From Pseudoflavonifractor sp. An184 (GTDB lineage: Bacteria; Bacillota; Clostridia; Oscillospirales; Oscillospiraceae): a stretch of 64,000 bases of DNA. The notes beneath the pieces were generated by a model. The model saw only the letters and a program-made list of their open reading frames with translations. It was not told where the DNA came from and ran no database searches. The DNA lies in contig NZ_NFKI01000001.1 in NCBI RefSeq assembly GCF_002160305.1, positions 1 through 64,000 on the forward strand. Direction: 5' to 3'. The translations under genes were made by a program, and so were the position numbers. Shown here one piece after another: positions 4,897-57,655 of this stretch (position 1 is the stretch's first letter; each line of letters begins with the position of its first letter).

Positions 4897-4973
4897 TTGC
4901 AAGATGTCCAGACCACGTGTAGTGTATAGGCGATGGTTAGCGACATCTAACCGAATGGTAGCACATCGCCTAT
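4897..4973 (+). promoter_or_regulatory. Box 1: promoter and DtxR-type box of the first ECF/ABC operon
   Basis: A weak promoter (TTGCAA 4897-4902, 17-bp spacer, TAGTGT 4920-4925) is followed after 9 bp by GGTTAG-CGACAT-CTAACC (4935-4952). The box is nested in a second perfect inverted repeat, ATAGGCGATG (4926-4935) / CATCGCCTAT (4964-4973). This is the only box in the window with such an outer repeat. Confidence 0.8.
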
Positions 4974-5008
4974 GAAAAGTCAACACGTTATGAAACAGGA
5001 GGAAAACT

Positions 5009-5620
5009 ATGAGCAGCCAAGCCAATTCACTGAAGAAGGGCCTTACGGTCAAGGACCTTGTGACCACCGGCATTTTCAGCGCCATCTTTTTTGTCTTTAC
5101 GTTGATTGGCGGTCTGCCCTTTGCGCCAAACCCGGTTCTGACCTTTTACATGCCCATGGGTGCGGCGCTGCTGTGCGGCCCCATCTATTTGCTGATGGTC
5201 GCTAAGGTGCAGAAACGCTGGAGCGTCACCATCCTCGGCATCATCATGGGAATCATCTGGTTTGCCACGGGGATGCACTGGGCGTTCTCCCTGGGGTACA
5301 TCGGCATGGGGATCATTGCGGACCTTGTGGCCGGCGCCGGTCACTACCGCAACAAGGCCATCAACCTGCTGTCCTACATGCTGATCTCCCTGGGCGGCAT
5401 CTACACCTATGTGGTATTCTTTATCGACCCGGAGGGCTGGGCCAGCACTATGCTGGATAACGGCACGGAGCAGTCCTACATTGACACCATGAGCGCCTCC
5501 GCGCCCTCCTGGCTGCTGGCGGTCATCGTCGTCGGCACGCTGGTCATCGCGGCCTTCAGCGGGTGGATCGGCGGCAAGATGCTGAAGAAACAGTTCGAGA
5601 AGGCTGGGATCACCGCATGA
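5009..5620 (+). CDS. ECF transporter substrate-binding S component (MptD/Trep_Strep family)
   Basis: This 203-residue integral membrane protein has about six hydrophobic segments. A short polar N-terminus is followed by LTVKDLVTTGIFSAIFFVFTLIGG, the start typical of the MptD/Trep_Strep S-component family. S components bind the substrate and are energised by the T and A subunits, which follow directly with overlapping codons. The ATG at 5009 has a strong CAGGAGG site. Family members in Firmicutes sit in metal/haem-regulated loci; from memory, the streptococcal siaFGH haem importer has a similar gene set. Iron-type regulation is supported here by box 1 upstream. The substrate itself (haem, siderophore or other chelate) cannot be read. 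A second paralogous system lies at 49547-52217. Confidence 0.85.
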   Translation: MSSQANSLKKGLTVKDLVTTGIFSAIFFVFTLIGGLPFAPNPVLTFYMPMGAALLCGPIYLLMVAKVQKRWSVTILGIIMGIIWFATGMHWAFSLGYIGMGIIADLVAGAGHYRNKAINLLSYMLISLGGIYTYVVFFIDPEGWASTMLDNGTEQSYIDTMSASAPSWLLAVIVVGTLVIAAFSGWIGGKMLKKQFEKAGITA

Positions 5621-6342
5621 ACGGCGGAACATCCCCACGGCAAAGACTCTGGCTGGATCCAAGGACGAAAATCCTGCTGCTCCTGCTCTGCATCCTCTCC
5701 GCCATGATGGCCCTGTCCCTGTACTATGAGCTGGGACTCGTGGTGCTGATTGGGCTGTTTGGCGCCTGCTGCGGAAAGTGGAAGTACGCCTGGAAGGGCG
5801 CGGCGTTCTACGGGCTGATCGTCCTGCTCACCTTCTGGATCATGGATACCATGACCGGGACCTGGCGCACCATGTTCATCACATTCCTCGGCCTGTTCCA
5901 CAAGGTGTACCCCTGCGGGATGCTGTCAGGCATCGTCATCTCCACCACTAAGGTCAGCGAGTTTTTGTCAGCCATGAACCGTGTCCATGCGCCGAAAAAT
6001 CTGGTGATCCCGCTGGCGGTCATGCTCCGCTATATCCCCACCATTCAGGAGGACTGGCGGTTCATCAAGGACGCTATGCGGCTGCGGGATGTGTCGCCGT
6101 CCCTGAAAGGACTACTGACCCATCCCGGCATGACCGTAGAGTGCATCTACGTCCCGCTGATGATGGCGGCATCCAAGGCGGCGGATGAACTGTCCATCGC
6201 CTCCATCACCCGGGGAATCGAGAACCCAAAACCAAGGACCTGCCTGGTGCAGATCCGCATGGGGCCGGCGGATGCGGCGGCAATTCTCTGTTTTGGCGCC
6301 TTTTTCGCGGCGGGCCTCTATGGGAAGGGGGTATTTGGATGA
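5617..6342 (+). CDS. ECF transporter transmembrane T component
   Basis: The protein has 241 residues. The N-terminal RLWLDPRTKILLLLLCILSAM is the hallmark start of CbiQ/EcfT proteins (a DPRTK motif before the first helix). About five membrane segments follow, with a cytoplasmic coupling region containing VMLRYIPTIQEDWRFIKDAMRLRD and an ITRGIE motif equivalent to the family's Ala-Arg-Gly coupling motif. The ATG at 5617 overlaps the S-component stop as ATGA. An in-frame ATG at 5563 lies deep in the S gene and is not needed. The protein couples ATP hydrolysis by the following ATPase to tumbling of the S component. Confidence 0.87.
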   Translation: MNGGTSPRQRLWLDPRTKILLLLLCILSAMMALSLYYELGLVVLIGLFGACCGKWKYAWKGAAFYGLIVLLTFWIMDTMTGTWRTMFITFLGLFHKVYPCGMLSGIVISTTKVSEFLSAMNRVHAPKNLVIPLAVMLRYIPTIQEDWRFIKDAMRLRDVSPSLKGLLTHPGMTVECIYVPLMMAASKAADELSIASITRGIENPKPRTCLVQIRMGPADAAAILCFGAFFAAGLYGKGVFG

Positions 6343-7817
6343 TCGAACTGAAACAGGTATCCTTTACCTATCAGGGGCAGGAGCATGACGGCCTCCGGGA
6401 CATTGACCTGACCATCGCGGATGGGGAGTGCGTCCTGCTCTGTGGGCGCAGCGGATGCGGCAAGACTACCATCACAAGGCTGGTGAACGGACTGATCCCT
6501 CAATTTTACCAGGGAGAACTTCAGGGCCGTGTGCTGGTAGACGGGCAGGAGATCAGCAGCCTCCCCATGTACCAGATCGCCGCCAAGGTGGGGTCAGTGT
6601 TCCAGAATCCCAGAACGCAGTTTTTTAACGTGGACACGGACAGCGAGATCGCCTTCGGCATCGAGAATGAGGCCCGGCCGCCCTGGGAACTGGCGGAGCG
6701 CGTGGAACAGACGACGGAGGACCTGCACATCCAGAGTCTCCGCGGCCGCAATATCTTCGAACTGTCCGGCGGGGAAAAGCAGAAGATCGCTTTCGCATCC
6801 GTCTACGCCATGAACCCAGAGATCTACCTGCTGGATGAACCATCTTCTAACCTGGATATGACCTCCATCCAAGAACTACGGGAGCATCTGCGGCTGATCA
6901 AAGGGCAGGGAAAGACCATTTTGATTGCGGAGCACCGGCTCTACTACCTGATGGACATAGCAGACCGGATCGTGTATCTGGACCGAGGAGAGATCAAAGG
7001 GATATTCACACCGGAAGAGCTCCGTCGGCTGTCCCAGGCACAGCGGGAACAGATGGGGCTGCGGGCAACGGATCTGATGGACGTCCTCCCGCCGCCCGGC
7101 CATGCCCCGGTCCGGGGATCGGTGCTGTCGTTGAACGATGTCTCCCTGCGCTATAAGAGGCGCACCATCCTTCACGGGATCGGCCTTTCCGCCGGAAGGG
7201 GAGAGGTCATCGGCGTGGTGGGCCACAGTGGGGCCGGAAAGACCACATTCTCTCGGGCCCTGTGCGGGCTCCACAAGGACTGTGACGGTCAGTTCCAGTG
7301 GGACGGCAGGCCTATGGAGCGCAGGGATCGGCTCAAGCAGTCCTACATGGTGATGCAGGACGTAAACTACGAGCTGTTCGCCGAGAGCGTGGAGGCGGAG
7401 TGCTCCTTCGGCATCCGGAACCCGGACAAGGTTTTGGTAGACGCCACCCTGAAGGAGCTGGGGCTGGCTCAGTGCCGGGAGCGCCATCCCAATACCCTGT
7501 CCGGCGGACAGAAACAGCGGGTGGCCGTGGCCGTCAGCATGATCTGCGGAAAAGACCTGCTGGTATTCGATGAACCCACCAGCGGCCTGGACTTTGACAG
7601 CATGGCTCAGGTGGCGGCGCTGATCCGCCGCCTATCCGACATGGGAAAAGTCATCTTCATCGTCACCCACGACTTTGAATTTATCTGCCGCACCTGCTCC
7701 CGGGTCCTGCACTTTGACGAGGGCGAGATGCCCGATGATGTCCCTGTTGCCATGGAAGCCCTCCCGAAATTGAGAGAGCTGTTCTCTGTTTCAGTTTCAA
7801 ATGGAAAGGAGAGATGA
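6339..7817 (+). CDS. ECF transporter ATPase, two ABC domains fused in one chain
   Basis: The protein has 492 residues with two complete ABC ATPase domains in tandem. Domain 1 has Walker A GRSGCGKTT (36-44), signature LSGGEKQ, Walker B YLLDEPSSNLD and an AEHRL switch. Domain 2 has GHSGAGKTT, LSGGQKQRVAVAVS, LLVFDEPTSGLD and VTHDF. Most ECF modules use two separate ATPase genes (EcfA and EcfA'); here one polypeptide supplies both. The ATG overlaps the T-component stop. Both ATP sites look intact. The fused arrangement recurs at 50835. The gene is followed after 3 bp by the ABC exporter-fold pair, suggesting one transcript. Confidence 0.9.
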   Translation: MIELKQVSFTYQGQEHDGLRDIDLTIADGECVLLCGRSGCGKTTITRLVNGLIPQFYQGELQGRVLVDGQEISSLPMYQIAAKVGSVFQNPRTQFFNVDTDSEIAFGIENEARPPWELAERVEQTTEDLHIQSLRGRNIFELSGGEKQKIAFASVYAMNPEIYLLDEPSSNLDMTSIQELREHLRLIKGQGKTILIAEHRLYYLMDIADRIVYLDRGEIKGIFTPEELRRLSQAQREQMGLRATDLMDVLPPPGHAPVRGSVLSLNDVSLRYKRRTILHGIGLSAGRGEVIGVVGHSGAGKTTFSRALCGLHKDCDGQFQWDGRPMERRDRLKQSYMVMQDVNYELFAESVEAECSFGIRNPDKVLVDATLKELGLAQCRERHPNTLSGGQKQRVAVAVSMICGKDLLVFDEPTSGLDFDSMAQVAALIRRLSDMGKVIFIVTHDFEFICRTCSRVLHFDEGEMPDDVPVAMEALPKLRELFSVSVSNGKER

Positions 7818-7820
7818 CCG

Positions 7821-9584
7821 ATGAAACAGAAAAAGGTCAACCGCGTGGCCCTGCTGCTCCACTGGGCGGGGGAGCAGAAAGCCTGGCTGTTTCTGGCAGT
7901 CTTTTTGTCAGCGGCCGGAGGGCTGTGCATTGTTGTCCCCTATATGGGGATCTATCAGCTGATGGATGCCGCCTTCAGCGGGACCTGTACCACCGAATTG
8001 GTGGTACGGATCGCGGCGATGATCGCTGTGGCCGTGGCCTTGCGTTTTGTGCTGTTTGGCGGCTCCGGGGTAGCCGCCCACAAAGGCGCCTACGGGGCGC
8101 TGTTCAAGGTGCGCTGCATGGTGGCGGAGCACATGGCCCGGGCGCCCCTGGGCGCTCTGAATGAGCGGCGCACCGGGGACATCAAGACGGTGCTGAACGA
8201 GGATATTGAGAAACTGGAACTGTTCCTGGCCCACAACCTGCCGGATCTGGTGTGCTATCTGGTAGGACCGGTGGTGGTCTTTGCCTACCTGATGACCGTC
8301 AATATCCCCCTGGCGCTGGTCTCTCTGGTGCCGCTGATCCTGGCCGTCGCTGTGATGGGGGTCATGTTCCGCAATACGGATGACCTGATGGACCGGGCCA
8401 ACCGCTCCATCAGCACCTTGAACTCCGTCATGATCGAGTACATCAACGGCATGAAACTGATCAAGGCCTACAACATGGGGAGCAAGTCCTTTCAAAAATT
8501 CTCCGATGCCATCCGCGAGGAAAACGCCATGTGGAATGAAACTTCCCGGCGGATGGGGCCGCCTTATGCGGCCTTTGTGGTCATTATCGAGTGCGGCATG
8601 CTGCTGATGGTGCCTCTTGGCGGGATGTTTTTCCTGAGAGGCTCCCTAACGGCCAGCGCCTTTCTGCTGTTCCTCTATGTGGGTTCCCTGTACCTGACCG
8701 AGATTCGGCCCCTGCAAGAGCTGGGAACCAACTTCGCCAATGTGCTGGGCGCTGTCACCAAGGCAAAGGAGATCCTGGACATCCCTGTCTATCAGGGCGG
8801 GAGCGACTTCCCCGAAAGCCACGACATTGAACTGCGGAACGTGCGGTTTTCCTATGACGGCAAGACCGACGTGCTGCAGGGCGTCAACCTGAAAATCAGA
8901 GACGGGGAGCGTATGGCCCTGGTGGGGCAGTCCGGCGCCGGCAAGAGCACCATTATTGAACTGGTCTCCCGGTTCTATGATGTGCAGGAGGGCGAGGTGC
9001 TGATCGGCGGGAAAAATGTGCAGGAGCTGGACTACGACACCATTCTAAAAAACGTGGCCATTGTGTTCCAGAAGACCTTCCTGACCCGGGACAGCGTTTT
9101 GGAAAACATCCGCATGGGGAGCAGCGCCAGTCTGGAGGAGGTGCGGGCGGCCGCGAAAGAGGCACAGATCGACGACTTTATCATGTCCCTGCCGGATGGC
9201 TACGACACCAAGGTGGGCAGCTTCGGCTCCCGCTTCTCCGGCGGCGAAAAGCAGCGCATCGCTATCGCCCGGGCCATCCTGAAAAATGCCCCGATCCTGA
9301 TTTTGGACGAGGCCACCAGTGCCTCCGACCCGGAAAATCAAATGGAGATCGACAAAGCCATCCAAAATCTCTGCAAGGGCAAGACCGTCATTGTGGTGGC
9401 CCACCGGCTCAGTGCCCTGAAACTGTGCGACCGGGTGGCCGTGGTGGAAAACCGCACGATTACCAGCGTGGGCACCCATGAGGAGGTTCGTCGAAAGAAC
9501 GCCTACTACCGGAAAGCATGGGAGGACTATGAAAAGGCCCGGAACATCACCTATCAGCTGGAAGGGGGCGAGGACAATGGGTGA
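7821..9584 (+). CDS. ABC transporter, fused membrane and ATPase domains (pair 1, subunit A)
   Basis: The protein has 587 residues: six membrane segments in the first ~310, then an ATPase domain with Walker A GQSGAGKST, signature FSGGEKQRIAIARAIL, Walker B ILILDEATSASDPE and the VAHRLS switch. This exporter fold in heterodimeric pairs is shared by drug exporters and by the siderophore/haem importers YbtPQ, IrtAB and the streptococcal SiaDE. Position directly behind an ECF operon, under a DtxR-type box, favours import or processing of a metal chelate. The D-loop Ser (SASD) is unusual, but the catalytic Glu is present. It overlaps the partner gene by 8 bp. Confidence 0.85.
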   Translation: MKQKKVNRVALLLHWAGEQKAWLFLAVFLSAAGGLCIVVPYMGIYQLMDAAFSGTCTTELVVRIAAMIAVAVALRFVLFGGSGVAAHKGAYGALFKVRCMVAEHMARAPLGALNERRTGDIKTVLNEDIEKLELFLAHNLPDLVCYLVGPVVVFAYLMTVNIPLALVSLVPLILAVAVMGVMFRNTDDLMDRANRSISTLNSVMIEYINGMKLIKAYNMGSKSFQKFSDAIREENAMWNETSRRMGPPYAAFVVIIECGMLLMVPLGGMFFLRGSLTASAFLLFLYVGSLYLTEIRPLQELGTNFANVLGAVTKAKEILDIPVYQGGSDFPESHDIELRNVRFSYDGKTDVLQGVNLKIRDGERMALVGQSGAGKSTIIELVSRFYDVQEGEVLIGGKNVQELDYDTILKNVAIVFQKTFLTRDSVLENIRMGSSASLEEVRAAAKEAQIDDFIMSLPDGYDTKVGSFGSRFSGGEKQRIAIARAILKNAPILILDEATSASDPENQMEIDKAIQNLCKGKTVIVVAHRLSALKLCDRVAVVENRTITSVGTHEEVRRKNAYYRKAWEDYEKARNITYQLEGGEDNG

Positions 9585-11331
9585 GCACAAGGTGAATAGC
9601 TCCGAAGGAGCCAGAGAGAGCGGCGTGGGCCATGAGGTTTTGAAGAAGAACCGAAACTTCTATATCGGCGTTGCGGGGACCGTGCTGGAGGGCATGCTCT
9701 CCGGCAGCCTCTTCATGCTGCTCTATGCGGTGATGCAATTCTTGTGGTCTGGTCGGTTCGACATGGATCAGGCCCTGGTGCTGACCGGTGTGATTGCCGG
9801 GATCTTCCTGCTCCGTATCCTGATTTACAGTTATGGCTATACCAAGGCCCAAATCGGCGGTGCGGAGGTCAGCCGGAACATCCGCCTCTTCATGGGGGAC
9901 CATCTCAAACGCATCCCGTTATCCCGGTTTACCCAGGGGCAGACCGGCGACTACATCAACACTATCACCAGCGACGTCAATAACTATGAAAAGATTTTGA
10001 CCCATAAGATCGGGGACCTGGCGAAGAGCTTCGCCCTGTCCCTCATGCTGATCGTGTTTGTCATGACTGTCTACGTCCCCGCCGGGCTGATCCTGCTGGC
10101 GGCGGATCTGCTGCTGATCCCCGGCCTGTGGCTATCCTTCCGCATGGTCCGGAAATACGGCCAGGAGAAGAACGACATCTGCGCGGAGAACGTCAGCAGC
10201 ATTGTGGAGTATGTATCCGGTATTCAGACCTTCCGGGCCTACGGTGTGGGCGGTCTGAAGAATAAAACCGTCATTGACGCCATGCGGGCATTCTGCCGCA
10301 TCAGCTATGTGTATGAGGCCAAGGTGCTCCCGGTGGGGGCGGGACTGAGCATCCTGACCTGGCTGGCCTGCCCGCTGGTCATCTGGGCAGCGTATGCGCC
10401 ATGGGCGGCCGGGACACTGGATACCGTGTCCTACCTGCTGATCTGTATGCTGCCCCTGTTCTGCGCGAAGCTGGCCAACACCATTTTTGTGGATCTCACC
10501 AGTTATAAAAACCTGATGATCTCCAAAAACAAAATCCTGGGCGTCATGGAGGAGCCGGAGGAGAGCGGCAGTATGGAACCGTTCCAGACGGATACCCATG
10601 AGATCACCTTTGACCATGTGGATTTTGCGTATGTCCCCGGAGAGCCTGTGCTGAAGCAGGCCACATTTACAGTACCGGACCAGAAGCTCACCGCCATCGT
10701 GGGGGACTCCGGCTCCGGCAAGTCCACTATCCTGAACCTGATTGCCAAATACTATGAACCCACCGGCGGCACTATTGCGATTGGCGGTAGGCCCACGGGC
10801 CATGTGGCGGCGGAGCGGGTGCTGGAGCAGATCTCCATGGTGGATCAGGATGTGTTCCTCTTTGATGACACCATCCGTGACAATATCCACCACGCACGCC
10901 CTGATGCCACCGATGGGGAAATCGAGGCGGCTTGCCGGGAGGCCAACTGCGACGGCTTTATCCGCAGCATGGAGAAGGGCTATGATACCCCCACAGGGGA
11001 GAATGGCAATCTGCTCTCCGGCGGTGAGCGCCAGCGCATCTCCATTGCCCGGGCCATTTTGAAGAACAGTCCCATTCTGCTGCTGGACGAGGCCACGGCG
11101 TCCCTGGACATCGAGAACGAGCTGGCGGTGAAACAGGCCATTGCCAATCTGCTCAAGGAGAAAAAGACCGTGGTGATGATTGCCCATACCCTGTCCATTG
11201 TCAAGAATGCGGACCAGATCCTGGTGGTAGCAGACGGGAAGATCGCAGAGGCCGGTACCCATGAGGAGCTGCTGGCCAAGAACGGGAAGTACGCGGCCAT
11301 GTGGCAGGCAGAGCAAAAAATATCCGCCTGA
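9577..11331 (+). CDS. ABC transporter, fused membrane and ATPase domains (pair 1, subunit B)
   Basis: The protein has 584 residues from the ATG at 9577, which overlaps the stop of subunit A. An upstream in-frame ATG at 9478 would add 33 residues from inside subunit A and is unlikely. Six membrane helices are followed by an ATPase domain with GDSGSGKST, LLSGGERQRISIARAIL, LLLDEATASLDIEN and an IAHTLS switch. It presumably forms a heterodimer with the previous product in the cytoplasmic membrane. The paralogue at 46610 is similar in length and motifs. Direction of transport and substrate are inferred only from context. Confidence 0.85.
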   Translation: MGEHKVNSSEGARESGVGHEVLKKNRNFYIGVAGTVLEGMLSGSLFMLLYAVMQFLWSGRFDMDQALVLTGVIAGIFLLRILIYSYGYTKAQIGGAEVSRNIRLFMGDHLKRIPLSRFTQGQTGDYINTITSDVNNYEKILTHKIGDLAKSFALSLMLIVFVMTVYVPAGLILLAADLLLIPGLWLSFRMVRKYGQEKNDICAENVSSIVEYVSGIQTFRAYGVGGLKNKTVIDAMRAFCRISYVYEAKVLPVGAGLSILTWLACPLVIWAAYAPWAAGTLDTVSYLLICMLPLFCAKLANTIFVDLTSYKNLMISKNKILGVMEEPEESGSMEPFQTDTHEITFDHVDFAYVPGEPVLKQATFTVPDQKLTAIVGDSGSGKSTILNLIAKYYEPTGGTIAIGGRPTGHVAAERVLEQISMVDQDVFLFDDTIRDNIHHARPDATDGEIEAACREANCDGFIRSMEKGYDTPTGENGNLLSGGERQRISIARAILKNSPILLLDEATASLDIENELAVKQAIANLLKEKKTVVMIAHTLSIVKNADQILVVADGKIAEAGTHEELLAKNGKYAAMWQAEQKISA

Positions 11332-11343
11332 GGGGAGGACGCC

Positions 11344-11712
11344 ATGAAACTCCACGCATCTGGAGAGGATTACCTGGAGGCCATTCTGGTGCTCCAAAGG
11401 CAGAAAGGCATGGTGCGCTCTGTAGATGTGGCCCGGCACCTGGAGGTCACAAAGCCCAGCGTCTGCAATGCGGTGGCGACCCTGCGGGACGGAGGCTTTC
11501 TCACGATGGACGAGGACTATTCCCTGCATCTCACCGATGTGGGCCGGGAAGTGGCAGAGCAGACCTATGAGAAGCACCGCTTCTTTACCGACCGGCTCAT
11601 TGAGGCGGGCGTAGACCCGGACACAGCTGAGCGGGACGCCTGCCGAATCGAGCACGTCATCAGCGACGAGAGTTTCCGGTGCTTGAAAGCCGCGGCAAAG
11701 TTAAAATCTTGA
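11344..11712 (+). CDS. DtxR-family metal-dependent repressor, short form, copy 1
   Basis: The protein has 122 residues: an N-terminal winged HTH (SVDVARHLEVTKPSVCNAVATLRDGGF, about 26-52) and a dimerisation/metal domain, with no SH3-like third domain. Aligned by eye with MntR and IdeR, likely metal ligands are D9, E12, H78, C100, E103 and H104. The Cys in DACRIEH is the DtxR/IdeR (iron) pattern, where MntR has Glu. It is last but one in the ECF/ABC operon, so the operon encodes its own candidate repressor. The paralogue at 62649-63017 is nearly identical in length and sequence. It is the best candidate to bind the 13 GGTTAG-N6-CTAACC boxes, although binding is untested. Confidence 0.87.
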   Translation: MKLHASGEDYLEAILVLQRQKGMVRSVDVARHLEVTKPSVCNAVATLRDGGFLTMDEDYSLHLTDVGREVAEQTYEKHRFFTDRLIEAGVDPDTAERDACRIEHVISDESFRCLKAAAKLKS

Positions 11713-11720
11713 GCATAGCA

Positions 11721-11766
11721 GGGAGGAGGCCATTCGCTCGGCCTCCTCCGTCTTGCGGAGGGGGAG
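11721..11766 (+). promoter_or_regulatory. Hairpin with alternative pairing to the next ribosome site
   Basis: GGAGGAGGCC (11722-11731) and GGCCTCCTCC (11740-11749) form a perfect stem. The right arm could instead pair with CGGAGGGG, part of the purine-rich ribosome site (11756-11766) of the winged-helix gene. The two foldings exclude each other. No T run follows. A comparable layout exists at 63025-63073. Confidence 0.5.
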
Positions 11767-11769
11767 AGA

Positions 11770-12219
11770 TTGGCAGAGATCATCGTCATCTATGCGCAGG
11801 ATCCGGACGGCAGCGTGTTCCAGGCCGTCATGGACGCGCTGAAGGGTAAAAGGGCAGAGGTGGTCGATGTATCCAATCTGTCCGCCTCCGTGCTGCACAT
11901 CGGGGATCTGGAGATCCATCACGAGCAACGCCGGGTGCTCATGGCAGGCAGGGAAGTGGAGCTCAATCATGGGGAGTATGCCATGCTCTACTGCATGGCC
12001 AGTTCACCAGGGCAGTTGTTCTCCAAAGCGCAGCTCTATGAGGCCGCTTGGGGGGAGGAATATCTCCACGGAACAAACTCCGTGGAAAATATCATTTGGC
12101 GGCTGAGAAGAAAACTGGAGGAGGACCCCAAACATCCGGGATACATCAAGACGGTGGTGGGGATGGACTATAAAATAGACATTGATGGCGAAGAGCAGGA
12201 AATTAAAAATGGAATATAG
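11770..12219 (+). CDS. Orphan OmpR/PhoB-type winged-helix protein, copy 3
   Basis: The protein has 149 residues. A TTG at 11770 is the only start that reproduces the N-terminus of the other copies (AEIIVIYAQDPDGSVFQAVMDALKG) and it follows GGAGGGGGAGA. There is a short receiver-like stub, then an OmpR/PhoB winged helix (about 43-138) with SVENIIWRLRRKLEEDPKHPGYIKTVVG as recognition helix and wing. It lies 57 bp after dtxR copy 1 in the same direction, so the two are probably co-transcribed and separated only by the hairpin. Its first half differs from copies 1 and 2 (SNLSASVLHIGDLEIHHEQ) while the second half is close to copy 2. Function unknown. Confidence 0.85.
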   Translation: MAEIIVIYAQDPDGSVFQAVMDALKGKRAEVVDVSNLSASVLHIGDLEIHHEQRRVLMAGREVELNHGEYAMLYCMASSPGQLFSKAQLYEAAWGEEYLHGTNSVENIIWRLRRKLEEDPKHPGYIKTVVGMDYKIDIDGEEQEIKNGI

Positions 12220-12355: not shown

Positions 12356-14086
12356 TTACAGCGACCACTTGCCGGCCTCGGCCCTTTGAGTTACAAAGTT
12401 CCGGTAGATGCCCTCCTGGCCGATCAGGTCCTCATGGGTGCCCCGCTGGACGATGCGGCCCTGATCCAGCACCAGGATCTGGTCGGCGTTGCGAACGGTC
12501 TTCAGCCGGTGGGCGATCATCAGCACGGTCTTTTCCCGGGTCAAAGCCTCCATGGCCTTTTGAAGCTGGTCCTCGTTCTCCGGGTCCACGTTGGCGGTGG
12601 CCTCGTCGAAGATGACGATGGGAGCATCCTTCAGCAGACACCGGGCAATGGAGATCCGCTGCTTCTCACCACCAGACAGGGTAGCCCCGCTCTCACCGAT
12701 GACCGTGTCATACCCTTCCGGCAGGGCGGAGATGAAGTCATGGCAGCAGGCCTTCTTCGCCGCATCCATCACCTGCTCGTGGGTAGCGTTGGGACAGCCG
12801 AACTTGATGTTGTTCTCAATGGTGTCATGGAAGAGGTACACCCGCTGGAACACCATGCTCACCTGTTTCATCAGGGATTCTAACGTGTATTCCCGCACAT
12901 CCCGGCCGCCGATGGCGACCCGGCCGCCCTCCACGTCCCAAAACCGGGTGATCAGGTTGCAGAGGGTGGTCTTGCCGGAGCCGGAGGGCCCCACGATAGC
13001 GGTGGTGGTCCTGTCCGGGATGGTGAGGGACACATCCTTCAAGATGGGCCGGCTGCCGTAGGAGAAGTTTACATGGTCGAACACGATGTCGTGGGAGTCC
13101 GGATGGAGCGCCGCGCCGTCCTGGTCCATCTCCGGAATTTGGTCCGCCTGGTTGGCGTGGTCGATGGAACTGCCCACCAGCCGCAGGGCGGACACACCGC
13201 TGCCGGCGGACTGAATCTGAGAGAAGATCAGGAAGGAGATGATCACCGCCATCAGAGCGTTGGCCAGAGTCAGGCTGCCATTCAGGTACAGCCACACGGC
13301 GGCAGCCAAAATCACCACACTGAACAGGTGGAGGGCCATCTCCTGGGCCCAGATGTAGGGGGTGAACAGCTTTTCCACCGCCAGATTGTTGACGCGGCTG
13401 TCCTCCAGGGCCTGACGGATCCGTTTGTCCCCCTTGCCGGTGAGGTTGAAGGACTTGATGACGCTCATTCCCTGGAGCTGCTCCAGAACCGCCTCTACCA
13501 GCCGGGCCTCGTCCCGCTGCCGCTTGGGCGCGATTTTGGCGGACTGTTTCTCCATGCGGGAGAGGAGCAGCAGGTACAGCGCCATCCCGGCCAGAGCCAG
13601 CAGGCCGATGCGCCAGTCCCAGAACAGCACGCACAGCAGCATGACGGCGGAGTTGATGAGCCCGCCCAGGATGGTGACCAGCACCATGGCCCCGGCGCTC
13701 TCCACCTCGTCCAGGACGGTGGTGGCGATGCCGGTGAGTTCCCCTAAACTCTGGTCATTGAAGTAGCCCATGGGGATGCGCTTGAGCTTATCGCCCATGC
13801 TTAGGCGCTTGTTGGCCGCCATGAAATACCCGGCGTGGGTCTGCTGGAGCTGACTGAACCGATTCATGATCGCCCGCCCCAGAATACTGACCAGCAGCAA
13901 GGCCAGGGCCTCCCAGGCCGGGGCGACAGAAGTGGAACCGTCCACCAGAGCCAGGACCACTACATAGATGGCGGCGATCTGGAACATGTGGAAGATGGCA
14001 TAAAAGAACCCCAGCACCATAGACTTGCGGATATTGCCTTGCTCTTCACCGGCAAAGCGCCAGATCTTTCTCAAAACCTCGATCAT
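12356..14086 (-). CDS. ABC transporter, fused membrane and ATPase domains (pair 2, subunit B)
   Basis: The protein has 576 residues from the ATG at 14086, which overlaps the stop of the upstream subunit as ATGA and follows AAAGGAGGGAG. The longer frame to 14125 starts inside the neighbour and is rejected. Six N-terminal membrane segments (MIEVLRKIWRFAGEEQ... start) are followed by Walker A GPSGSGKTT, signature LSGGEKQRISIARCLL, Walker B IVIFDEATANVDPEN and an IAHRLKT switch. It closely parallels the 54764 protein (the second subunit of pair 5) in motifs and in its position after a partner subunit. It should form the second half of a YbtPQ-like heterodimer. Confidence 0.85.
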   Translation of the reverse strand: MIEVLRKIWRFAGEEQGNIRKSMVLGFFYAIFHMFQIAAIYVVVLALVDGSTSVAPAWEALALLLVSILGRAIMNRFSQLQQTHAGYFMAANKRLSMGDKLKRIPMGYFNDQSLGELTGIATTVLDEVESAGAMVLVTILGGLINSAVMLLCVLFWDWRIGLLALAGMALYLLLLSRMEKQSAKIAPKRQRDEARLVEAVLEQLQGMSVIKSFNLTGKGDKRIRQALEDSRVNNLAVEKLFTPYIWAQEMALHLFSVVILAAAVWLYLNGSLTLANALMAVIISFLIFSQIQSAGSGVSALRLVGSSIDHANQADQIPEMDQDGAALHPDSHDIVFDHVNFSYGSRPILKDVSLTIPDRTTTAIVGPSGSGKTTLCNLITRFWDVEGGRVAIGGRDVREYTLESLMKQVSMVFQRVYLFHDTIENNIKFGCPNATHEQVMDAAKKACCHDFISALPEGYDTVIGESGATLSGGEKQRISIARCLLKDAPIVIFDEATANVDPENEDQLQKAMEALTREKTVLMIAHRLKTVRNADQILVLDQGRIVQRGTHEDLIGQEGIYRNFVTQRAEAGKWSL

Positions 14087-15825
14087 GCCTGCTCTCCCTC
14101 CTTTACACCCATGTGAGCCTGCCACATCTCACGATAGAGGGGGCAGGTTTCCAAAAGATTCTCATGCTTGCCGGCGGCCTCGATGCGTCCGCCGTTCACC
14201 ACTACGATCTGGTCCGCGCCGGTGATGGTGCTCAGGCGGTGGGCGATGACCAGCACCGTCCTGCCCGCAACCAGCTTGCCCACTGCACGCTGGACCAGGG
14301 CCTCGTTTTCTGGGTCAATGTAGGCTGTGGCCTCATCCAGCACCACGATGGGGGCATCCTTCAGCATGGCCCGGGCGATGGCAATGCGCTGCCGCTCCCC
14401 GCCGGAGAGGTGGGCGCCGCCTCCGCCCACGATGGTGTCATAGCCCTGTTCCAGGGCCCGAATGAAATCGTCGCACCCGGCGGCCTTCGCCACAGCCTCC
14501 ACCTCCTGGTCGGCGGCATTGGGGCGGCCCATGCGGATGTTCTCCCGGACGCTCTCGTCAAAGAGGTAGTTGTCCTGGGACACAAAGGCCACCTGGTCAT
14601 AGAGCTGGGGAAGCGGGATTTTCTTCAGATCCTGCCCGTCCAGGGTGATGGCGCCGGCGGACACATCCCAGAACCCGGCGATCAGTTTGGCGATGGTGGA
14701 CTTGCCGGAGCCGGAGGGGCCCACAAAGGCAGTCATGGTGCCGGCGGGGATGGTGAGGGACACGTCGTGGAGGACCTCCTTGTCCGCGTGGTAGCCGAAG
14801 GACACATGGGAGAGGGCGATGTCCCGCCCCTGGAACTGCACCGGGGCGTTCCCGTGGTCCTGCTCCTGACCGTTCAAAATCTCGTCCACTGAGCCCACGA
14901 TAGTTCCCACCTTGGCCAGGCTGTCCACAAAGTCCATGGCGGACAGCAGCGGTCCGGCGATGCCCAGGGACAGCACGATGGTGGTGATGAAGGTCTCCAC
15001 CGGCAGGCTCCCGCCGGCATACAGGAGCCAGCCCACCGGCAAAATGGTGATCATGGTGGTGGGGGAGATGGCCTTGGACAGGGAGATGGGCAGCTGGCAG
15101 CTTTTCATCCAGTGGTAGAAGTAGGAGGCGTTGGCCTTTACGCTGTCGGAAAACCGGGCGTAGGACTGCTTCCCCTGATTGAAGGCCTTGATGACCTCAA
15201 TGCCGCCGATGTACTCCACGATGGCGCTGTTCATGGCCTGGGTGGTCTTGACGGAGCCCTCGTACTGCTTGCCGTAGCCCGCCATCACCGCCATCATGAA
15301 GGCCATGCCCACCGGGATGGACACCAGGCTCAGCAGGGCCATCCGCCAATCCAGCACGAAGAGGTAGATCAGGATGCAAACCGGCCCCAGCACGTTGGCG
15401 GTCATCTCCGGCAGCAGGTGGGCCAGGGGCCGCTCCATGCTCTCCACCTGGTCAACGATGACCTGCTTCATCTGGCCGCTGGAGGTATCCAGGATGGTGC
15501 CGAGAGGCATTCTGGGGAGTTTCTCCAAAATTTTCTCCCGGATGGACTTCAGAATGGAGAAGGTAGCCTTATGGGAGATGGACAGGGCCAGGGAATACAG
15601 GCTGGCCCGCAGTAGGAACCCTGCCAGGGCCACGGCGCACCAGGTCAGGTAGAACGAGAATTCCTGTCTGCCGGACAGCAGGCCGAGAATGATCTGGGCG
15701 GCGGCGAAGTAGGGGGCCATGCCGCACAGCACCCCCACCACGGCGGACAGGATGGCCTGAATCAGGCTGCCGTGCTGTGCCTTACCCAGTTCCCATAGCC
15801 GAAGCATGGGATTTTGTTGCTTCAT
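14083..15825 (-). CDS. ABC transporter, fused membrane and ATPase domains (pair 2, subunit A)
   Basis: The protein has 580 residues. The start MKQQNPMLRLWELGKAQHGSL is preceded by AAGGAGGAATTC. Six membrane segments lie in residues ~15-300, followed by an ATPase with GPSGSGKST, LSGGERQRIAIARAML, IVVLDEATAYIDPEN and IAHRLS. It is the first gene after box 2 and is translationally coupled to subunit B. It is paralogous to the 53009 protein: the two share phrases such as RLWELG/LWGWADG, LPRMPLGTILDT versus LSRVPMGTILDT, and VDQVESMERPLAHLLPEM versus VDRVEGMEPTLAHLLPEM. A tetR gene lies immediately upstream in the same direction. Confidence 0.87.
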   Translation of the reverse strand: MKQQNPMLRLWELGKAQHGSLIQAILSAVVGVLCGMAPYFAAAQIILGLLSGRQEFSFYLTWCAVALAGFLLRASLYSLALSISHKATFSILKSIREKILEKLPRMPLGTILDTSSGQMKQVIVDQVESMERPLAHLLPEMTANVLGPVCILIYLFVLDWRMALLSLVSIPVGMAFMMAVMAGYGKQYEGSVKTTQAMNSAIVEYIGGIEVIKAFNQGKQSYARFSDSVKANASYFYHWMKSCQLPISLSKAISPTTMITILPVGWLLYAGGSLPVETFITTIVLSLGIAGPLLSAMDFVDSLAKVGTIVGSVDEILNGQEQDHGNAPVQFQGRDIALSHVSFGYHADKEVLHDVSLTIPAGTMTAFVGPSGSGKSTIAKLIAGFWDVSAGAITLDGQDLKKIPLPQLYDQVAFVSQDNYLFDESVRENIRMGRPNAADQEVEAVAKAAGCDDFIRALEQGYDTIVGGGGAHLSGGERQRIAIARAMLKDAPIVVLDEATAYIDPENEALVQRAVGKLVAGRTVLVIAHRLSTITGADQIVVVNGGRIEAAGKHENLLETCPLYREMWQAHMGVKEGEQA

Positions 15826-15843: not shown

Positions 15844-15861
15844 GGTTAGTGATTGCTAACT
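15844..15861 (-). promoter_or_regulatory. Box 2: DtxR-type box upstream of ABC pair 2
   Basis: GGTTAG-TGATTG-CTAACT lies 18 bp upstream of the subunit A start. I cannot see a convincing -35/-10, so the promoter may be weak or overlap the tetR terminator. Confidence 0.8.
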
Positions 15862-15869: not shown

Positions 15870-15904
15870 AATCAAAAGGCTGCACCCAGAAGGGGGGACA
15901 GCCT
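15870..15904 (-). terminator. Terminator of the tetR gene (minus strand)
   Basis: Read on the minus strand, AGGCTGTCCCCC pairs imperfectly with GGGTGCAGCCT and is followed by TTTTGATTT. It separates tetR from the box-controlled ABC pair. Confidence 0.65.
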
Positions 15905-20201: not shown

Positions 20202-20219
20202 AATTAGTTATTGCTAACT
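20202..20219 (-). promoter_or_regulatory. Box 3: DtxR-type box upstream of ABC pair 3
   Basis: AATTAG-TTATTG-CTAACT lies 21 bp upstream of the GTG start. The left arm has one change from the consensus half site. The -35/-10 elements are not clear. Confidence 0.75.
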
Positions 20220-20227: not shown

Positions 20228-20255
20228 GTGAAAAACCTCTCCGCCCGGAGAGGCT
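20228..20255 (-). terminator. Terminator of the tetR gene (minus strand)
   Basis: On the minus strand GCCTCTCC-GGGC-GGAGAGG is followed by TTTTTC. It lies between the tetR stop at 20260 and box 3. Confidence 0.85.
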
Positions 20256-21356: not shown

Positions 21357-21411
21357 TTGACAGCGGGGGTGCAATTTTATATAATTGCCCTATGGTTAGC
21401 AATAACTAACC
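21357..21411 (+). promoter_or_regulatory. Box 4: consensus promoter with perfect DtxR-type box
   Basis: TTGACA (21357-21362), a 17-bp spacer and TATAAT (21380-21385) give a full consensus promoter. GGTTAG-CAATAA-CTAACC (21394-21411), a perfect palindrome in its arms, begins 8 bp after the -10. This is the strongest promoter I can read in the window, so expression should be high when the repressor is off. Confidence 0.9.
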
Positions 21412-21461: not shown

Positions 21462-21644
21462 ATGATGGATCACTTGAATCAGATGGATACCCAAGAGCAT
21501 GTTGTCAAGGTCGATCTTCTGCACCTGAACCCTGCCGACCCGGATGGAGGCTGCTGCTGTCATCACGAAGGGCACCCTTGCTGTGGGCGGCACTGCCATG
21601 GACAGGAGAACCAACCTATCGCGGAAGAGCGAGAAAAAGTGTGA
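21462..21644 (+). CDS. Cys/His-rich small protein, putative metal-binding peptide
   Basis: The protein has 60 residues. The ATG at 21462 follows AAGGAG at 21448-21453; the frame is open further upstream but would run through box 4. Residues 31-42 (CCCHHEGHPCCG), followed by RHCHG, hold six Cys and five His within about 17 positions, flanked by an acidic C-terminus (EEREKV). There is no signal peptide or membrane segment, so it should be cytosolic. I do not recognise the family. Such a cluster could bind Zn, Fe, Ni or Cu as a chaperone, buffer or sensor. It is the first gene after the strongest box-controlled promoter and is followed by a lipoprotein and two methyltransferases. Confidence 0.72.
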   Translation: MMDHLNQMDTQEHVVKVDLLHLNPADPDGGCCCHHEGHPCCGRHCHGQENQPIAEEREKV

Positions 21645-28473: not shown

Positions 28474-28491
28474 GATTAGCCATAGCTTACC
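28474..28491 (-). promoter_or_regulatory. Box 5: degenerate DtxR-type box upstream of the G3E operon
   Basis: GATTAG-CCATAG-CTTACC keeps the N6 spacing with one change in each arm. It lies 29 bp upstream of the GTPase start. It is weaker than the other boxes, so its assignment is tentative. Confidence 0.5.
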
Positions 28492-28546: not shown

Positions 28547-28603
28547 TTGACTTACGGCGGGGTTTCAGAGTAGAATATAGCAGTAGGTTAGCGATGGCTA
28601 ACC
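28547..28603 (+). promoter_or_regulatory. Box 6: promoter and DtxR-type box of the Crp/ABC operon
   Basis: TTGACT (28547-28552), an 18-bp spacer and TAGAAT (28571-28576) are followed after 9 bp by a perfect-arm box GGTTAG-CGATGG-CTAACC (28586-28603). Confidence 0.88.
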
Positions 28604-28627: not shown

Positions 28628-29269
28628 ATGATCATACAGGAAAAACTGGCATCGTCACCCTTTTTGGCGGGCGCATCCCTACCGCTGGAGCAGGTGACCT
28701 CAAAGAGGTTCCGTGCGGGCCAGATCATCAGCGACAAGCCGAGCGGCGTTTCATCCGTGGGGATGATCGTGTCCGGACGGGTGGAGGTCTATTCCGTGGC
28801 ACTGGATGGAAAGGATGTGCAGCTCAATGCCCTGACTGCGGGGGAGTGTTTTGGCGTCTGTAATCTGATGGCCAGCGCCGAGCTGGAAACGGTCTTGCGA
28901 TGCGGGGAAGAGACAGAAGTCCTATATATTCCTAAGGCGGTCCTACTCTCCTGTATGGAGCAGGATGCAGGACTTGCCATGCGCTATGCGGCCCTGTGCA
29001 ACCGGAAGCTCCAGTTTCTGCTCCGGCGCATCGAGCTGCTTACGATGCAGTCCTGCCGAGGCCGGCTCATTGCCCATCTCCTGGAGCAGCAGGATGAGAA
29101 GGGCGTGGTAAGGCTCGCCGGGTCCCGGGAGGATCTGGCCCGCCGTCTGGGGGTCAGCCGGGCCGCCCTTTTCCGGGAGCTGTCCGCGCTCCAGTCCATG
29201 GGAGCGGCCGCAGTGGACGGAAATTCCATTCGGATCCAGGACCGCCCGTTGCTGGAAGAACTGCTCTAG
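28628..29269 (+). CDS. Crp/Fnr-family transcriptional regulator
   Basis: The protein has 213 residues. An N-terminal cyclic-nucleotide-binding-like beta barrel (IISDKPSGVSSVGMIVSGRVEVYSVALDGKDVQLNALTAGECFGV) and a long dimer helix are followed by a C-terminal winged HTH (SREDLARRLGVSRAALFRELSALQSMGA, about 165-192). The Cys residues do not form the N-terminal Fnr Fe-S pattern, so it is not an obvious oxygen sensor. It is the first gene under box 6 and precedes a taurine/nitrate-type ABC importer, which it may control. A weak site GGGGGGGCG precedes the ATG; an earlier CTG or TTG start cannot be excluded. Confidence 0.83.
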   Translation: MIIQEKLASSPFLAGASLPLEQVTSKRFRAGQIISDKPSGVSSVGMIVSGRVEVYSVALDGKDVQLNALTAGECFGVCNLMASAELETVLRCGEETEVLYIPKAVLLSCMEQDAGLAMRYAALCNRKLQFLLRRIELLTMQSCRGRLIAHLLEQQDEKGVVRLAGSREDLARRLGVSRAALFRELSALQSMGAAAVDGNSIRIQDRPLLEELL

Positions 29270-34195: not shown

Positions 34196-34213
34196 GGTTA
34201 GTATCTGCTAACC
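34196..34213 (-). promoter_or_regulatory. Box 7: DtxR-type box upstream of the methyltransferase operon
   Basis: GGTTAG-TATCTG-CTAACC has perfect arms. On the minus strand TTGCAA, a 17-bp spacer and TATCTT can be read just upstream, so here the box nearly abuts the -10. An alternative -10 TAGTAT would leave a 5-bp gap. Confidence 0.82.
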
Positions 34214-37826: not shown

Positions 37827-37882
37827 AGTTAGCTGACGCTAACCGTAAAAGAATTATATAGGGTTTTCTATCTCCTTGTCAA
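37827..37882 (-). promoter_or_regulatory. Box 8: promoter and DtxR-type box of the ahpC operon
   Basis: On the minus strand TTGACA (37882-37877) is followed by TATAAT (37858-37853, 18-bp spacer) or TATATA with a 16-bp spacer. The box AGTTAG-CTGACG-CTAACC (37827-37844, plus-strand reading) begins 8 bp further on, ahead of the ahpC ribosome site. Confidence 0.87.
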
Positions 37883-37954: not shown

Positions 37955-38008
37955 TTGATTTTTGCGTTAAGCAAGTGTATACTGCTCTTGGGTTAGTTAT
38001 TGCTAACC
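37955..38008 (+). promoter_or_regulatory. Box 9: promoter and DtxR-type box of the divergent methyltransferase operon
   Basis: TTGATT (37955-37960), a 17-bp spacer and TATACT (37978-37983) are followed after 7 bp by GGTTAG-TTATTG-CTAACC (37991-38008). Boxes 8 and 9 thus control back-to-back operons. Confidence 0.88.
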
Positions 38009-44054: not shown

Positions 44055-44108
44055 TTGACAAATGGATCCGACAGCTATACTATAGCATTGTTATATAACG
44101 CTGCTATA
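44055..44108 (+). promoter_or_regulatory. Promoter and TetR-type operator of the 44123 gene
   Basis: TTGACA (44055-44060), a 17-bp spacer and TACTAT (44078-44083) are followed by an inverted repeat TATAGCA (44081-44087) / TGCTATA (44102-44108) around a central TTATATAA. It overlaps the -10 and the start region, as expected for autorepression. Confidence 0.72.
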
Positions 44109-44122: not shown

Positions 44123-44740
44123 ATGGAAGAGAACACTCCCACCACATTGGAAAGGATCCAGGAGGCGGCCATGACCGAATTTCTGGACAAGGGCTTTCTG
44201 GGGGCCTCCCTGCGGCAGATCGTGAAGAACGCCGGGGTGACCACAGGAGCGCTCTATGGGTATTTTTCCAGCAAGGAGGCCTTATTCGCCTCCATTGTGG
44301 AGCCCCACGCCGCCGCCCTCATGGGCCGGTTCATGGAAGCCCAGACCTCCTTCGCCGAGCTTCCTGAGGAGGAACAGGCAAACAGCATGGGTGAGAAGTC
44401 CGGGCAATATGTGAATTGGATGGTGGACTACATCTGCCAGCACCGACAGCCGGTCAAGTTGCTTCTCTGCCGGGCGGAGGGTACCAGTTATGAGCACTTC
44501 GTCCACAACATGGTGGAGCAGGAGGTAGACTACACCCTTCGGTATATGGATGTCCTTCGCCATCTGGGGCTGGATGTTCCGGAGCTGAGCCGCTCCCTAT
44601 GCCATATTATTGCCAGCGGGATGTTCAACGGCCTTTTTGAGATCGTGGTCCACGATATGCCCAGGGAGCAGGCACTGCGGGATGTGGAACAGTTCCGAAG
44701 CTTCTACACCGGCGGATGGCTGAAATTGATGGGGGGATGA
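44123..44740 (+). CDS. TetR/AcrR-family regulator of ABC pair 4
   Basis: The protein has 205 residues. The HTH ASLRQIVKNAGVTTGALYGYFSSKEALF (about 29-57) is preceded by EFLDKGFLG, which nearly repeats EFLSKGFLD of the 15912 protein. The C-terminal MFNGLFEIVVHDMPREQALRDVEQFRSFYTGGWLKLM parallels LFNGIFETVRHDMPREKALRYMASLRDFYSAGWFKLL of the 52326 protein. It stands 22 bp before box 10 and the ABC pair, repeating the tetR-box-ABC-ABC order. The ATG follows AAGGAGG. Confidence 0.88.
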   Translation: MEENTPTTLERIQEAAMTEFLDKGFLGASLRQIVKNAGVTTGALYGYFSSKEALFASIVEPHAAALMGRFMEAQTSFAELPEEEQANSMGEKSGQYVNWMVDYICQHRQPVKLLLCRAEGTSYEHFVHNMVEQEVDYTLRYMDVLRHLGLDVPELSRSLCHIIASGMFNGLFEIVVHDMPREQALRDVEQFRSFYTGGWLKLMGG

Positions 44741-44761
44741 TCCCTGTCTTTTTTGATATTG

Positions 44762-44779
44762 AGTTAGCAATAACTAACT
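44762..44779 (+). promoter_or_regulatory. Box 10: DtxR-type box upstream of ABC pair 4
   Basis: AGTTAG-CAATAA-CTAACT has perfect symmetric arms and ends 20 bp before the ABC start. The -35/-10 is not convincing; GATATT (44755-44760) is a possible -10. Confidence 0.85.
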
Positions 44780-49469: not shown

Positions 49470-49523
49470 TTGTGGTATAGGGTGTGCTGTGCTATCCTGT
49501 CAAATGGTTAGCATCGCCTAACG
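49470..49523 (+). promoter_or_regulatory. Box 11: promoter and DtxR-type box of ECF operon 2
   Basis: TTGTGG (49470-49475), a 17-bp spacer and an extended -10 TGCTATCCT (TATCCT at 49493-49498) are followed after 7 bp by GGTTAG-CATCGC-CTAACG (49506-49523). Confidence 0.82.
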
Positions 49524-52254: not shown

Positions 52255-52314
52255 TTGACAAATAGTGTTCAGCAGATTAAAATAACATCGTTATTTAATA
52301 ACGACGTTATTTTA
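52255..52314 (+). promoter_or_regulatory. Promoter and TetR-type operator of the 52326 gene
   Basis: TTGACA (52255-52260), a 17-bp spacer and TAAAAT (52278-52283) overlap a long palindrome, about 52281-52313, built from AATAACATCGTTATT and AATAACGACGTTATT around a shared centre. This is the clearest TetR operator in the window. Confidence 0.78.
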
Positions 52315-52325
52315 AGGAGAAGCCG

Positions 52326-52952
52326 ATGCGCGTTCTGAATGAAAAGCTCTGTGCAGACATACTGGAGACCGGCAGAAAAGAGTTCCTCGCGTTAGGCTAC
52401 CGGGATGCTTCATTGCGGCATATAGCCGCTTCACTGGGAGTAACTACCGGGGCTATCTACCGCTATTATGCGGACAAAGAGGCGCTGTTTGACGCTTTGG
52501 TCGCCCAGCCGGCCCAAGAGCTGGCGGATCGCTACCGGGCGGTACAGCAGACCTTTGCTCAGCAGAGCGTGGAGGAGCAGGTACGAAACCTCCCCGAAGT
52601 GCCTGACGAAGAGGCCGGGTGGATGCTGGACTTCATCTACGACCACTTCGACGCCTTCAAACTGATCGCCTGCTGCGCCGGGGGCACTAAGTATGAGCAC
52701 TATCTGGATACTCTGGCGGAAATCGAGGATAACGCCGGCCGGGCCCTCATTGAAAAGATGGCAGAGGCCGGCTACTCGCTGCCTCAAATCGACGACGAAC
52801 TCATCCACATCATGTCCAGCGCCCTGTTCAACGGCATCTTTGAGACGGTGCGCCACGACATGCCCCGGGAGAAGGCACTTCGCTATATGGCAAGCCTCCG
52901 GGACTTCTATTCTGCCGGTTGGTTCAAACTGCTGGGGATCTCAGACACCTGA
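52326..52952 (+). CDS. TetR/AcrR-family regulator of ABC pair 5
   Basis: The protein has 208 residues. The HTH ASLRHIAASLGVTTGAIYRYYADKEALF (about 28-56) follows EFLALGYRD. The ligand domain contains LDFIYDHFDAFKLIACCAGGTKYEHYLDTLAEIE, closely matching LDYIYDHFDLFRLLLDGAHGTRFACFLDELVDIE of the 15912 protein. It is the fourth member of the tetR set that precedes ABC pairs. Box 12 and pair 5 follow 24 bp later. AAGGAGA precedes the ATG. Confidence 0.88.
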   Translation: MRVLNEKLCADILETGRKEFLALGYRDASLRHIAASLGVTTGAIYRYYADKEALFDALVAQPAQELADRYRAVQQTFAQQSVEEQVRNLPEVPDEEAGWMLDFIYDHFDAFKLIACCAGGTKYEHYLDTLAEIEDNAGRALIEKMAEAGYSLPQIDDELIHIMSSALFNGIFETVRHDMPREKALRYMASLRDFYSAGWFKLLGISDT

Positions 52953-52975
52953 GTTCCCCCAGTTTTTTGATTAAA

Positions 52976-52993
52976 AGTTAGCAAAAACTAACT
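52976..52993 (+). promoter_or_regulatory. Box 12: DtxR-type box upstream of ABC pair 5
   Basis: AGTTAG-CAAAAA-CTAACT has symmetric arms and ends 15 bp before the ABC start. No convincing -35/-10 is seen. Confidence 0.85.
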
Positions 52994-53008
52994 AAAGGAG
53001 ATGCTGAT

Positions 53009-54760: not shown

Positions 54761-54763
54761 GCC

Positions 54764-56494: not shown

Positions 56495-56509
56495 GGAGAA
56501 ATCGGCACA

Positions 56510-57556: not shown

Positions 57557-57594
57557 AAATCCGCTAAAATGTCTTTGTACGCAAGGGCATCTGC

Positions 57595-57630
57595 CAAAAA
57601 AGCGCATCGAGTCCGGTGCGCTTTCTCTTT
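57595..57630 (+). terminator. Terminator after the AraC gene
   Basis: AAAAAAGCGCA and TGCGCTTTCTCTTT form a stem with T-rich tail. It ends the box 12 operon just before box 13. Confidence 0.82.
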
Positions 57631-57637
57631 GATATGA

Positions 57638-57655
57638 GGTTAGCATTATCTAACT
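57638..57655 (+). promoter_or_regulatory. Box 13: DtxR-type box upstream of the nickel/peptide-type ABC operon
   Basis: GGTTAG-CATTAT-CTAACT ends 16 bp before the first permease gene. No clear -35/-10 can be assigned; GATATG (57631-57636) is a weak possibility. Confidence 0.82.

Follow-up and report, generated by a model that had tools for sequence, protein, structure and literature searches.

The repressors of the DtxR family are the closest described counterparts of the system considered here, an 18-bp palindromic box (GGTTAG-N6-CTAACC) that recurs in front of operons in a stretch of 64,000 nucleotides of Pseudoflavonifractor sp. An184 (assembly GCF_002160305.1, contig NZ_NFKI01000001.1, positions 1 to 64,000 of the forward strand). 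This whole stretch is called the window, and its contig is referred to as C1. The report on the IdeR structures gives TTAGGTTAGSCTAACCTAA as a site for two dimers and TTAGG-N4-CCTAA as a site for one dimer, describes the earlier DtxR-type DNA complexes as having two dimers on 19 bp, and names Ser37 and Pro39 of IdeR as residues that contact DNA (PMC8464063). The boxes of the window share with the one-dimer IdeR/DtxR site of that text the spacing TTAG-N6-CTAA, but they differ from the IdeR site in their inner base, which is mostly C/G and not G/C; their commonest form is TTAGC-N4-GCTAA.

Termination has also been attributed to a protein of this kind. In the excerpted text of two reports, YtgR, a DtxR-like iron-dependent repressor of Chlamydia trachomatis, is reported to cause iron-dependent termination between trpR and trpBA (PMC6504234, PMC7755916). 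The likeness would be that an intergenically bound DtxR-like iron repressor promotes the termination of upstream read-through. YtgR concerns a single operon, and the word "terminator" is absent from the text of PMC6504234, whose excerpted passages give no fixed spacing, whereas the arrangement described below recurs in many operons and in several families, with a hairpin and T-run 7–12 nucleotides (nt) from the box. A further counterpart is roadblock repression, in which DNA-bound CodY, CcpA or LacI stops the elongating polymerase and Mfd aids termination (PMC4132739, PMC10310618, both as excerpted). In contrast to these cases, the putative roadblock site considered here lies directly behind an intrinsic terminator, a term that does not occur in the text of the 2023 review. 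A literature search combining DtxR, Faecalibacterium and feoB found no paper, and no title or abstract describing the terminator-box element was met in literature searches whose scope left subscription papers largely outside.

It is proposed here, with a probability of roughly 0.85, that the box is the operator of an iron-responsive DtxR-family regulon and that it occurs in two geometries, one at promoters and the other behind intrinsic terminators.

Distribution of the box

The box was sought with a loose pattern (GGTTAG-N6-CTAACC, three mismatches at most) and with a strict core (GTTAG-N6-CTAAC, exact), the reversed pattern serving as control. The loose scan recovered all 13 boxes of an earlier, sequence-only reading of the window at the coordinates given there, five of them matching all 12 fixed bases and eight with one to three mismatches, and it returned a 14th match, at 8682, within a coding region. 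As evidence the loose count was rejected (14 matches at three mismatches, against 15.7 expected from shuffles), and the claim is therefore carried by the strict core, with 11 exact matches in the window and 20 in the whole genome of 3.59 Mb, against a single match of the reversed control. The sequence-only reading had proposed scanning the genome and its relatives for the motif, and the exact core stands above its control in both, with 472 boxes against 113 control matches in 120 genomes of the family.

That reading had also described the regulon as local, which it is not. Fourteen of the 20 exact genome boxes lie in the first 85 kb of C1, two on C57, one on C80 and three on C97; boxes continue to C1:84.4 kb and are found on C24 as well. 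Allowing one mismatch to RGTTAG-N6-CTAACY adds sites on C1, C24, C46, C57 and C75, those on C46 and C75 lying, out of keeping with the other targets, next to open reading frames (ORFs) without a Pfam match, a cupin and an integrase; at two mismatches the reversed control exceeds the pattern in the genome (198 against 69). Beyond the window, boxes precede further ABC and ECF operons on C1, feoA-feoB on C24, a ZIP transporter and an HMA protein on C97, and an ECF operon on C80. On the whole, the box-headed genes are a set for coping with starvation for iron or metal.

Two FeoB genes are present in the genome, of which the feoA-linked one (C24:7216-9591) carries boxes; no exact box was found in the locus of the other (C95:11967, locus L137), where the start of a strong Fur gene lies some 3.4 kb beyond the FeoB_N match. 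On C85 (L053), positions 6447-11815 hold in a row two large ORFs that resemble an ABC pair in size and order only, followed by genes for a MATE and a DtxR protein; a box with two mismatches lies upstream of the row, at C85:11924.

Association with dtxR and feoB in relatives

The link between the box and dtxR extends across the clade. Among the matches listed, 26 divergent dtxR-feoB pairs from 25 genomes were picked by eye, and their intergenic regions hold an exact box in 23 cases and a box with at most one mismatch in 25; the 44 exact boxes in these regions compare with a mononucleotide-shuffle mean of 0.01. Named genomes provided a second sample of 78 loci (1.31 Mb, some overlapping), fetched solely because a protein related to the window DtxR is encoded there: 65 hold an exact box, and the 106 exact boxes (87 distinct by context) stand against a single control match. 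In the 120 family genomes, the mean number of boxes per genome is 4.2 where a DtxR match is present (n = 110) and 0.9 where it is absent (n = 10, seven of them less than 90% complete; Mann-Whitney p = 0.0002). When 30 FeoB loci were fetched by best Pfam score, exact boxes appeared in four; it was mainly at the feoB genes that adjoin dtxR that boxes were found. Many dtxR-feoB intergenic regions (L145-L170) contain two or three boxes spaced by about 25 or 33–35 bp, a spacing that suggests side-by-side dimers.

Because of this dtxR-feoB link and the one-dimer spacing of DtxR/IdeR sites, a DtxR protein is the likely reader of the box. The idea of a common metal regulon, presumably for iron, read by DtxR is strongly supported by comparative genomics, with the qualification that it is not local and that the DtxR genes number seven and not two.

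The DtxR-like proteins

The genome encodes seven DtxR-like proteins above the Pfam cut-off, five of them on C1, and in all seven both the DNA-binding (PF01325) and the dimerisation (PF02742) domains exceed their cut-offs. Two lie in the window: one of 122 amino acids (11344..11712, forward strand), the last gene of the transport operon behind box 4935, and one of 136 amino acids (62607..63017, forward strand), behind the importer genes of box 57638. The 11344 protein is 77–87% identical to each of the other four encoded on C1.

With a total length of 122–136 amino acids these proteins differ from IdeR in leaving no room for the C-terminal SH3-like domain, and they are not of the SH3-bearing iron type of DtxR/IdeR. 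They resemble it in an S/T-K-P-S motif that, judged by eye, stands at apparently the same place as Ser37 and Pro39 in the excerpted IdeR text. The closest solved structures are those of MntR, the E. coli protein being the best match and that of B. subtilis also found. Size is shared with MntR, as is an Asp near the start (SGEDY here, DDY/EDY there); the differences are a Cys in DACRIEH where the aligned MntR has Glu, and the targets, which here are iron genes. The inner part of the E. coli MntR box, TAGC-N4-GCTA, is a further point in common. Across the seven proteins D9, C100, E103 and H104 are invariant, a set that we take to be a mix of MntR-like Asp and DtxR-like Cys ligands. The only one of the seven that was scored (L054) falls below the NCBIfam equivalog cut-offs for MntR and DtxR (98 bits against 153 and 81 against 138), and since the protein is MntR-sized yet below these cut-offs, the metal has to be judged from the targets, which make iron the most likely one.

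The notion that every DtxR gene of the contig closes a box-headed operon was rejected: by gene order it is true only for 11344, 62607 and C1:82536, and the operons containing C1:74225 and C1:92916 showed no box immediately in front of them. Five times on C1 (window 11344-12219 and 62607-63529; C1:74225-75114, 82536-83409 and 92916-93771) the gene next after dtxR is an orphan of the OmpR winged-helix type (Trans_reg_C), in which no receiver domain was detected, and additional winged-helix copies lie at 52-354 and 3205-3648 of the window; the five winged-helix proteins compared are 61–84% identical to the one at 11770. In named genomes, 74 dtxR copies leave enough room downstream, and 28 of these show the same succession. 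Loci bearing the names Blautia, Eisenbergiella, Faecalibacterium and Amedibacillus likewise contain box-headed transporter genes with dtxR behind them, and this spread suggests that self-regulated iron islands are exchanged between lineages.

Two geometries

For the six boxes with a readable promoter, the distance of 7–9 nt between -10 hexamer and box given by the sequence-only reading is confirmed, the hexamer being the best-scoring one and the promoter score having no shuffled control. All six are on the forward strand except the one at ahpC. Box 4935..4952 starts 9 nt after TTGCAA-17-TAGTGT and precedes an ECF-S/CbiQ/ABC/ABC/ABC/DtxR operon; 21394..21411 (TTGACA-17-TATAAT, 8 nt) precedes a Cys/His peptide and methyltransferases; 28586..28603 (9 nt) heads an operon for a Crp-like protein and a substrate-binding protein, permease and ATPase (NMT1-type ABC); 37827..37844 (reverse strand, TTGACA-18-TATAAT, 8 nt) precedes ahpC and an ahpF-like gene, with DUF3793 and flavodoxin genes beyond; 37991..38008 (7 nt) precedes a methyltransferase operon and 49506..49523 (7 nt) a second ECF operon. 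Elsewhere in the genome, the boxes at C24:7128, C57:15841, C80:11760 and C1:78973 start within 6–9 nt after a -10 hexamer.

The geometry is, however, not uniform as had been stated, and a second class of boxes lies behind an intrinsic terminator without a clear promoter of its own. It comprises at least four boxes in the window and probably a fifth (20202, assigned by eye). None of them has a convincing promoter; each lies 7–12 nt beyond a hairpin and T-run, which come after a TetR or AraC gene read in the same direction, and each directly precedes the next Shine-Dalgarno sequence. On the reverse strand, box 15844..15861 precedes an ABC pair (14083-15825 and 12356-14125), and the T-run of the hairpin just upstream (15874..15903, coordinates by eye, RNAfold -16.1) ends 12 nt before it; the degenerate box 20202..20219 (AATTAG..CTAACT), outside the scored exact set, precedes another ABC pair (18432-20180 and 16684-18468), and a hairpin with T5 read by eye (20231..20253) lies 11 nt upstream. 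On the forward strand, box 44762..44779 separates a TetR-family gene (44123..44740, promoter-like site TTGACA-17-TACTAT in front at 44055) from an ABC pair and stands 7 nt behind a terminator with hairpin 44728-44748 and T6 (44728..44754). Box 52976..52993 likewise lies between a TetR-family gene (52326..52952, TTGACA-17-TAAAAT in front at 52255) and an ABC pair, 7 nt behind a hairpin (52932-52962, coordinates by eye, RNAfold -17.1) and T6 that extend over 52932..52968. Box 57638..57655, between an AraC gene and a Nik/Cnt-like importer operon, stands 7 nt behind a hairpin (57599-57624) with a T-rich tail (57599..57630). A consensus scan of 44–58 kb lists the terminators 44728-44748 and 57599-57624 and the promoter-like sites at 44055 and 52255; the 52932-52962 hairpin is absent from its output.

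Two feoA-feoB operons were read out, that of this genome and that of locus L153. In both, FeoA genes (Pfam) lie between promoter boxes and feoB, and an extra box stands just before feoB, so that the second geometry seems to recur inside a single operon. With this gene order feoB needs no promoter of its own, and it is presumably reached by read-through. A near-feoB box with at most two mismatches is present in 16 of the 26 dtxR-feoB pairs, several with a hairpin and T-run upstream.

The terminator class across loci

The second geometry was evaluated on exact boxes with a Shine-Dalgarno start within 45 nt (n = 123; window, own genome, relatives and named loci). Boxes with a second box within 60 nt upstream were excluded, the unfiltered count of 42/123 having included "hairpins" that were another box, which left 92 single boxes in 61 clusters. 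A composite, defined as a hairpin and T-run within 16 nt of the box under limits (-6 kcal, 16 nt) fixed after the window cases had been seen, occurs at 35 of the 92 single boxes (23/61 clusters) and at 46 of 989 box-free control gene starts, and is thus eight times commoner at boxes (Fisher p = 3e-19, the sequences being not fully independent). On the opposite side of the boxes it occurs once in 114. The T-run ends 6–12 nt before the box in 22 of the 23 terminator-class clusters, and the distances are spread out at control gene starts.

For fresh loci the expectation was fixed in advance, the element being predicted at 20% or more of the boxes and, on their opposite side, at no more than 5%; 30 loci of one scan were named, 28 of them new. 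The fresh set also took in 34 family and 26 class regions, hand-picked with flanks unseen among the places listed; some of its genomes had also given loci to the first set, and boxes were dropped only where their 60-nt upstream flanks were identical. The element was found in 4 of 17 cases in the pre-named loci (opposite side 0/17), in 6 of 14 in the added family regions (0/14) and in 14 of 44 over all fresh loci (0/43), every case at 7–12 nt, and it is present outside the family too. A second family scan, by T-run pattern (153 of 300 genomes matching), was not used, overlapping matches having been counted unevenly per strand.

Proposed mode of action and alternatives

It is suggested that a single dimer of a short metalloregulator of the DtxR family, similar to MntR in size and most likely iron-sensing, has the palindrome as its operator, and that the metal-bound repressor would silence iron-acquisition and iron-sparing operons. 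At promoter boxes, which start 7–9 nt after the -10 hexamer and would overlap the start point, the repressor may block initiation. At terminator boxes, a repressor sitting beyond the U-tract could stop read-through from the upstream TetR, AraC, winged-helix-turn-helix or feoA gene, either by blocking read-through alone or by detaining the polymerase at the point of hairpin formation, possibly helped by Mfd. The TetR and AraC modules would then work as an AND gate, in which the upstream promoter responds to a substrate and a gate in between opens on iron starvation. That the clade-wide element (terminator, 7–10 nt, DtxR box, Shine-Dalgarno sequence) is such an iron-gated terminator is given about even odds.

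The chief rival accepts the DtxR regulon but regards the terminator-class boxes as operators of the usual kind, whose weak promoters overlap the upstream terminator, the T-run acting as a poor -10. The T-run and the -10 hexamer are indeed equally far from the box, and 4 of the 35 terminator-class boxes also score promoter-like (at least 4.8), both as a weak promoter would predict. Opposed to this are the absence of a -35 signal in the 23 terminator-class clusters, the eightfold excess of hairpin and T-run together over control gene starts, and the FeoA genes between promoter boxes and feoB; A at positions -14 to -10 is at most 0.09 in this class, which also speaks against a -10 there, with the proviso that the low value is partly built in by the T-run selection and a weak promoter is possible. 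Weak promoters are therefore considered a doubtful but serious alternative to the read-through gate. Regulators other than DtxR are far harder to accommodate. The Crp-like gene directly behind box 28586 (28628-29269) and the 5-N6-5 layout, which we assume to be the geometry of CRP sites as well, bring a CRP/FNR-type protein to mind, but the boxes track dtxR and feoB in relatives and carry DtxR/IdeR half-sites, which makes it very improbable. Local TetR or AraC proteins, whose genes adjoin many boxes, are less credible still: the box is uniform, yet the regulators encoded beside the operons it serves come from two unrelated families, the box also stands at feoAB and ahpC, where no such gene is seen alongside, and compared with the 44123 protein four of five TetR proteins share 36–80% identity over most of their length and the fifth only over a stretch of 37 amino acids. 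The least credible candidate is Fur, of which the genome holds one strong homologue, away from the window; the feoB gene near fur on C95 lies in a locus without an exact box, and the box is presumably not a Fur box.

Several observations weigh against the proposed regulon and its read-through gate. A roadblock very near the U-tract could hinder, and not help, RNA release. Thirty-four of the 92 single boxes fit neither class by the thresholds used; the promoter-like scores and the shared T-run and -10 distance mentioned above count here as well. A co-directional ORF stop lies within 150 nt upstream in 22 of the 35 terminator-class boxes (divergent in one, none found in 12), a feature that is not class-specific, given 16/23 in the promoter class and 20/34 among the unclassified. 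The 44–58 kb scan gives 14 terminators and 7 promoters where shuffled sequence gives 11.0 and 4.4, totals so close that a lone match is weak. As for the association with DtxR, 14 of the 120 family genomes lack an exact box in spite of a DtxR match, the background of about one chance match per genome (113 control matches against 472 boxes) means that low counts say little, and the dtxR gene on C13 has no box with at most two mismatches within C13:46000-60000.

Further features of the window

The two boxes of the window not yet described are on the reverse strand: 34196..34213, not clearly of either class, before a methyltransferase/GNAT/DUF2249 operon, and the degenerate 28474..28491 (GATTAG..CTTACC), with no readable promoter, before an operon with a CobW-like gene, an ABC ATPase and a 307-amino-acid ORF. 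Both ECF operons contain a Trep_Strep/MptD-type S component, CbiQ and ATPases. Directly behind the strong promoter and box at 21394, and ahead of a small ORF and the methyltransferases, lies a Cys/His-rich ORF of 60 amino acids (21462..21644, forward strand; GGCCCHHEGHPCCGRHCHGQ), possibly a metal-binding peptide. The binding protein of the Nik/Cnt-like importer (57672-62531) matches the NikA and staphylopine CntA models below their cut-offs, and the importer may serve metallophore uptake.

Implications for gut Clostridia

These results supply an iron regulon, its operator and a likely regulator for a large and little-studied group of gut Clostridia, the loci fetched including Flavonifractor, Intestinimonas, Faecalibacterium, Blautia and relatives, and they would explain a single off-switch common to many iron-piracy operons. 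In the literature found, partly as excerpts, termination caused by a DtxR-type repressor is reported for one Chlamydia operon, and with the terminator-linked boxes it can be tested directly whether a repressor on DNA forms part of an intrinsic terminator from which it stands at a fixed distance. If the read-through gate is real, scans for promoters only would misread this operator class, one transcription factor would control both initiation, at promoter boxes, and elongation, at terminator boxes, and feoB and the ABC importers would be expressed only when the upstream promoter fires and iron is scarce.

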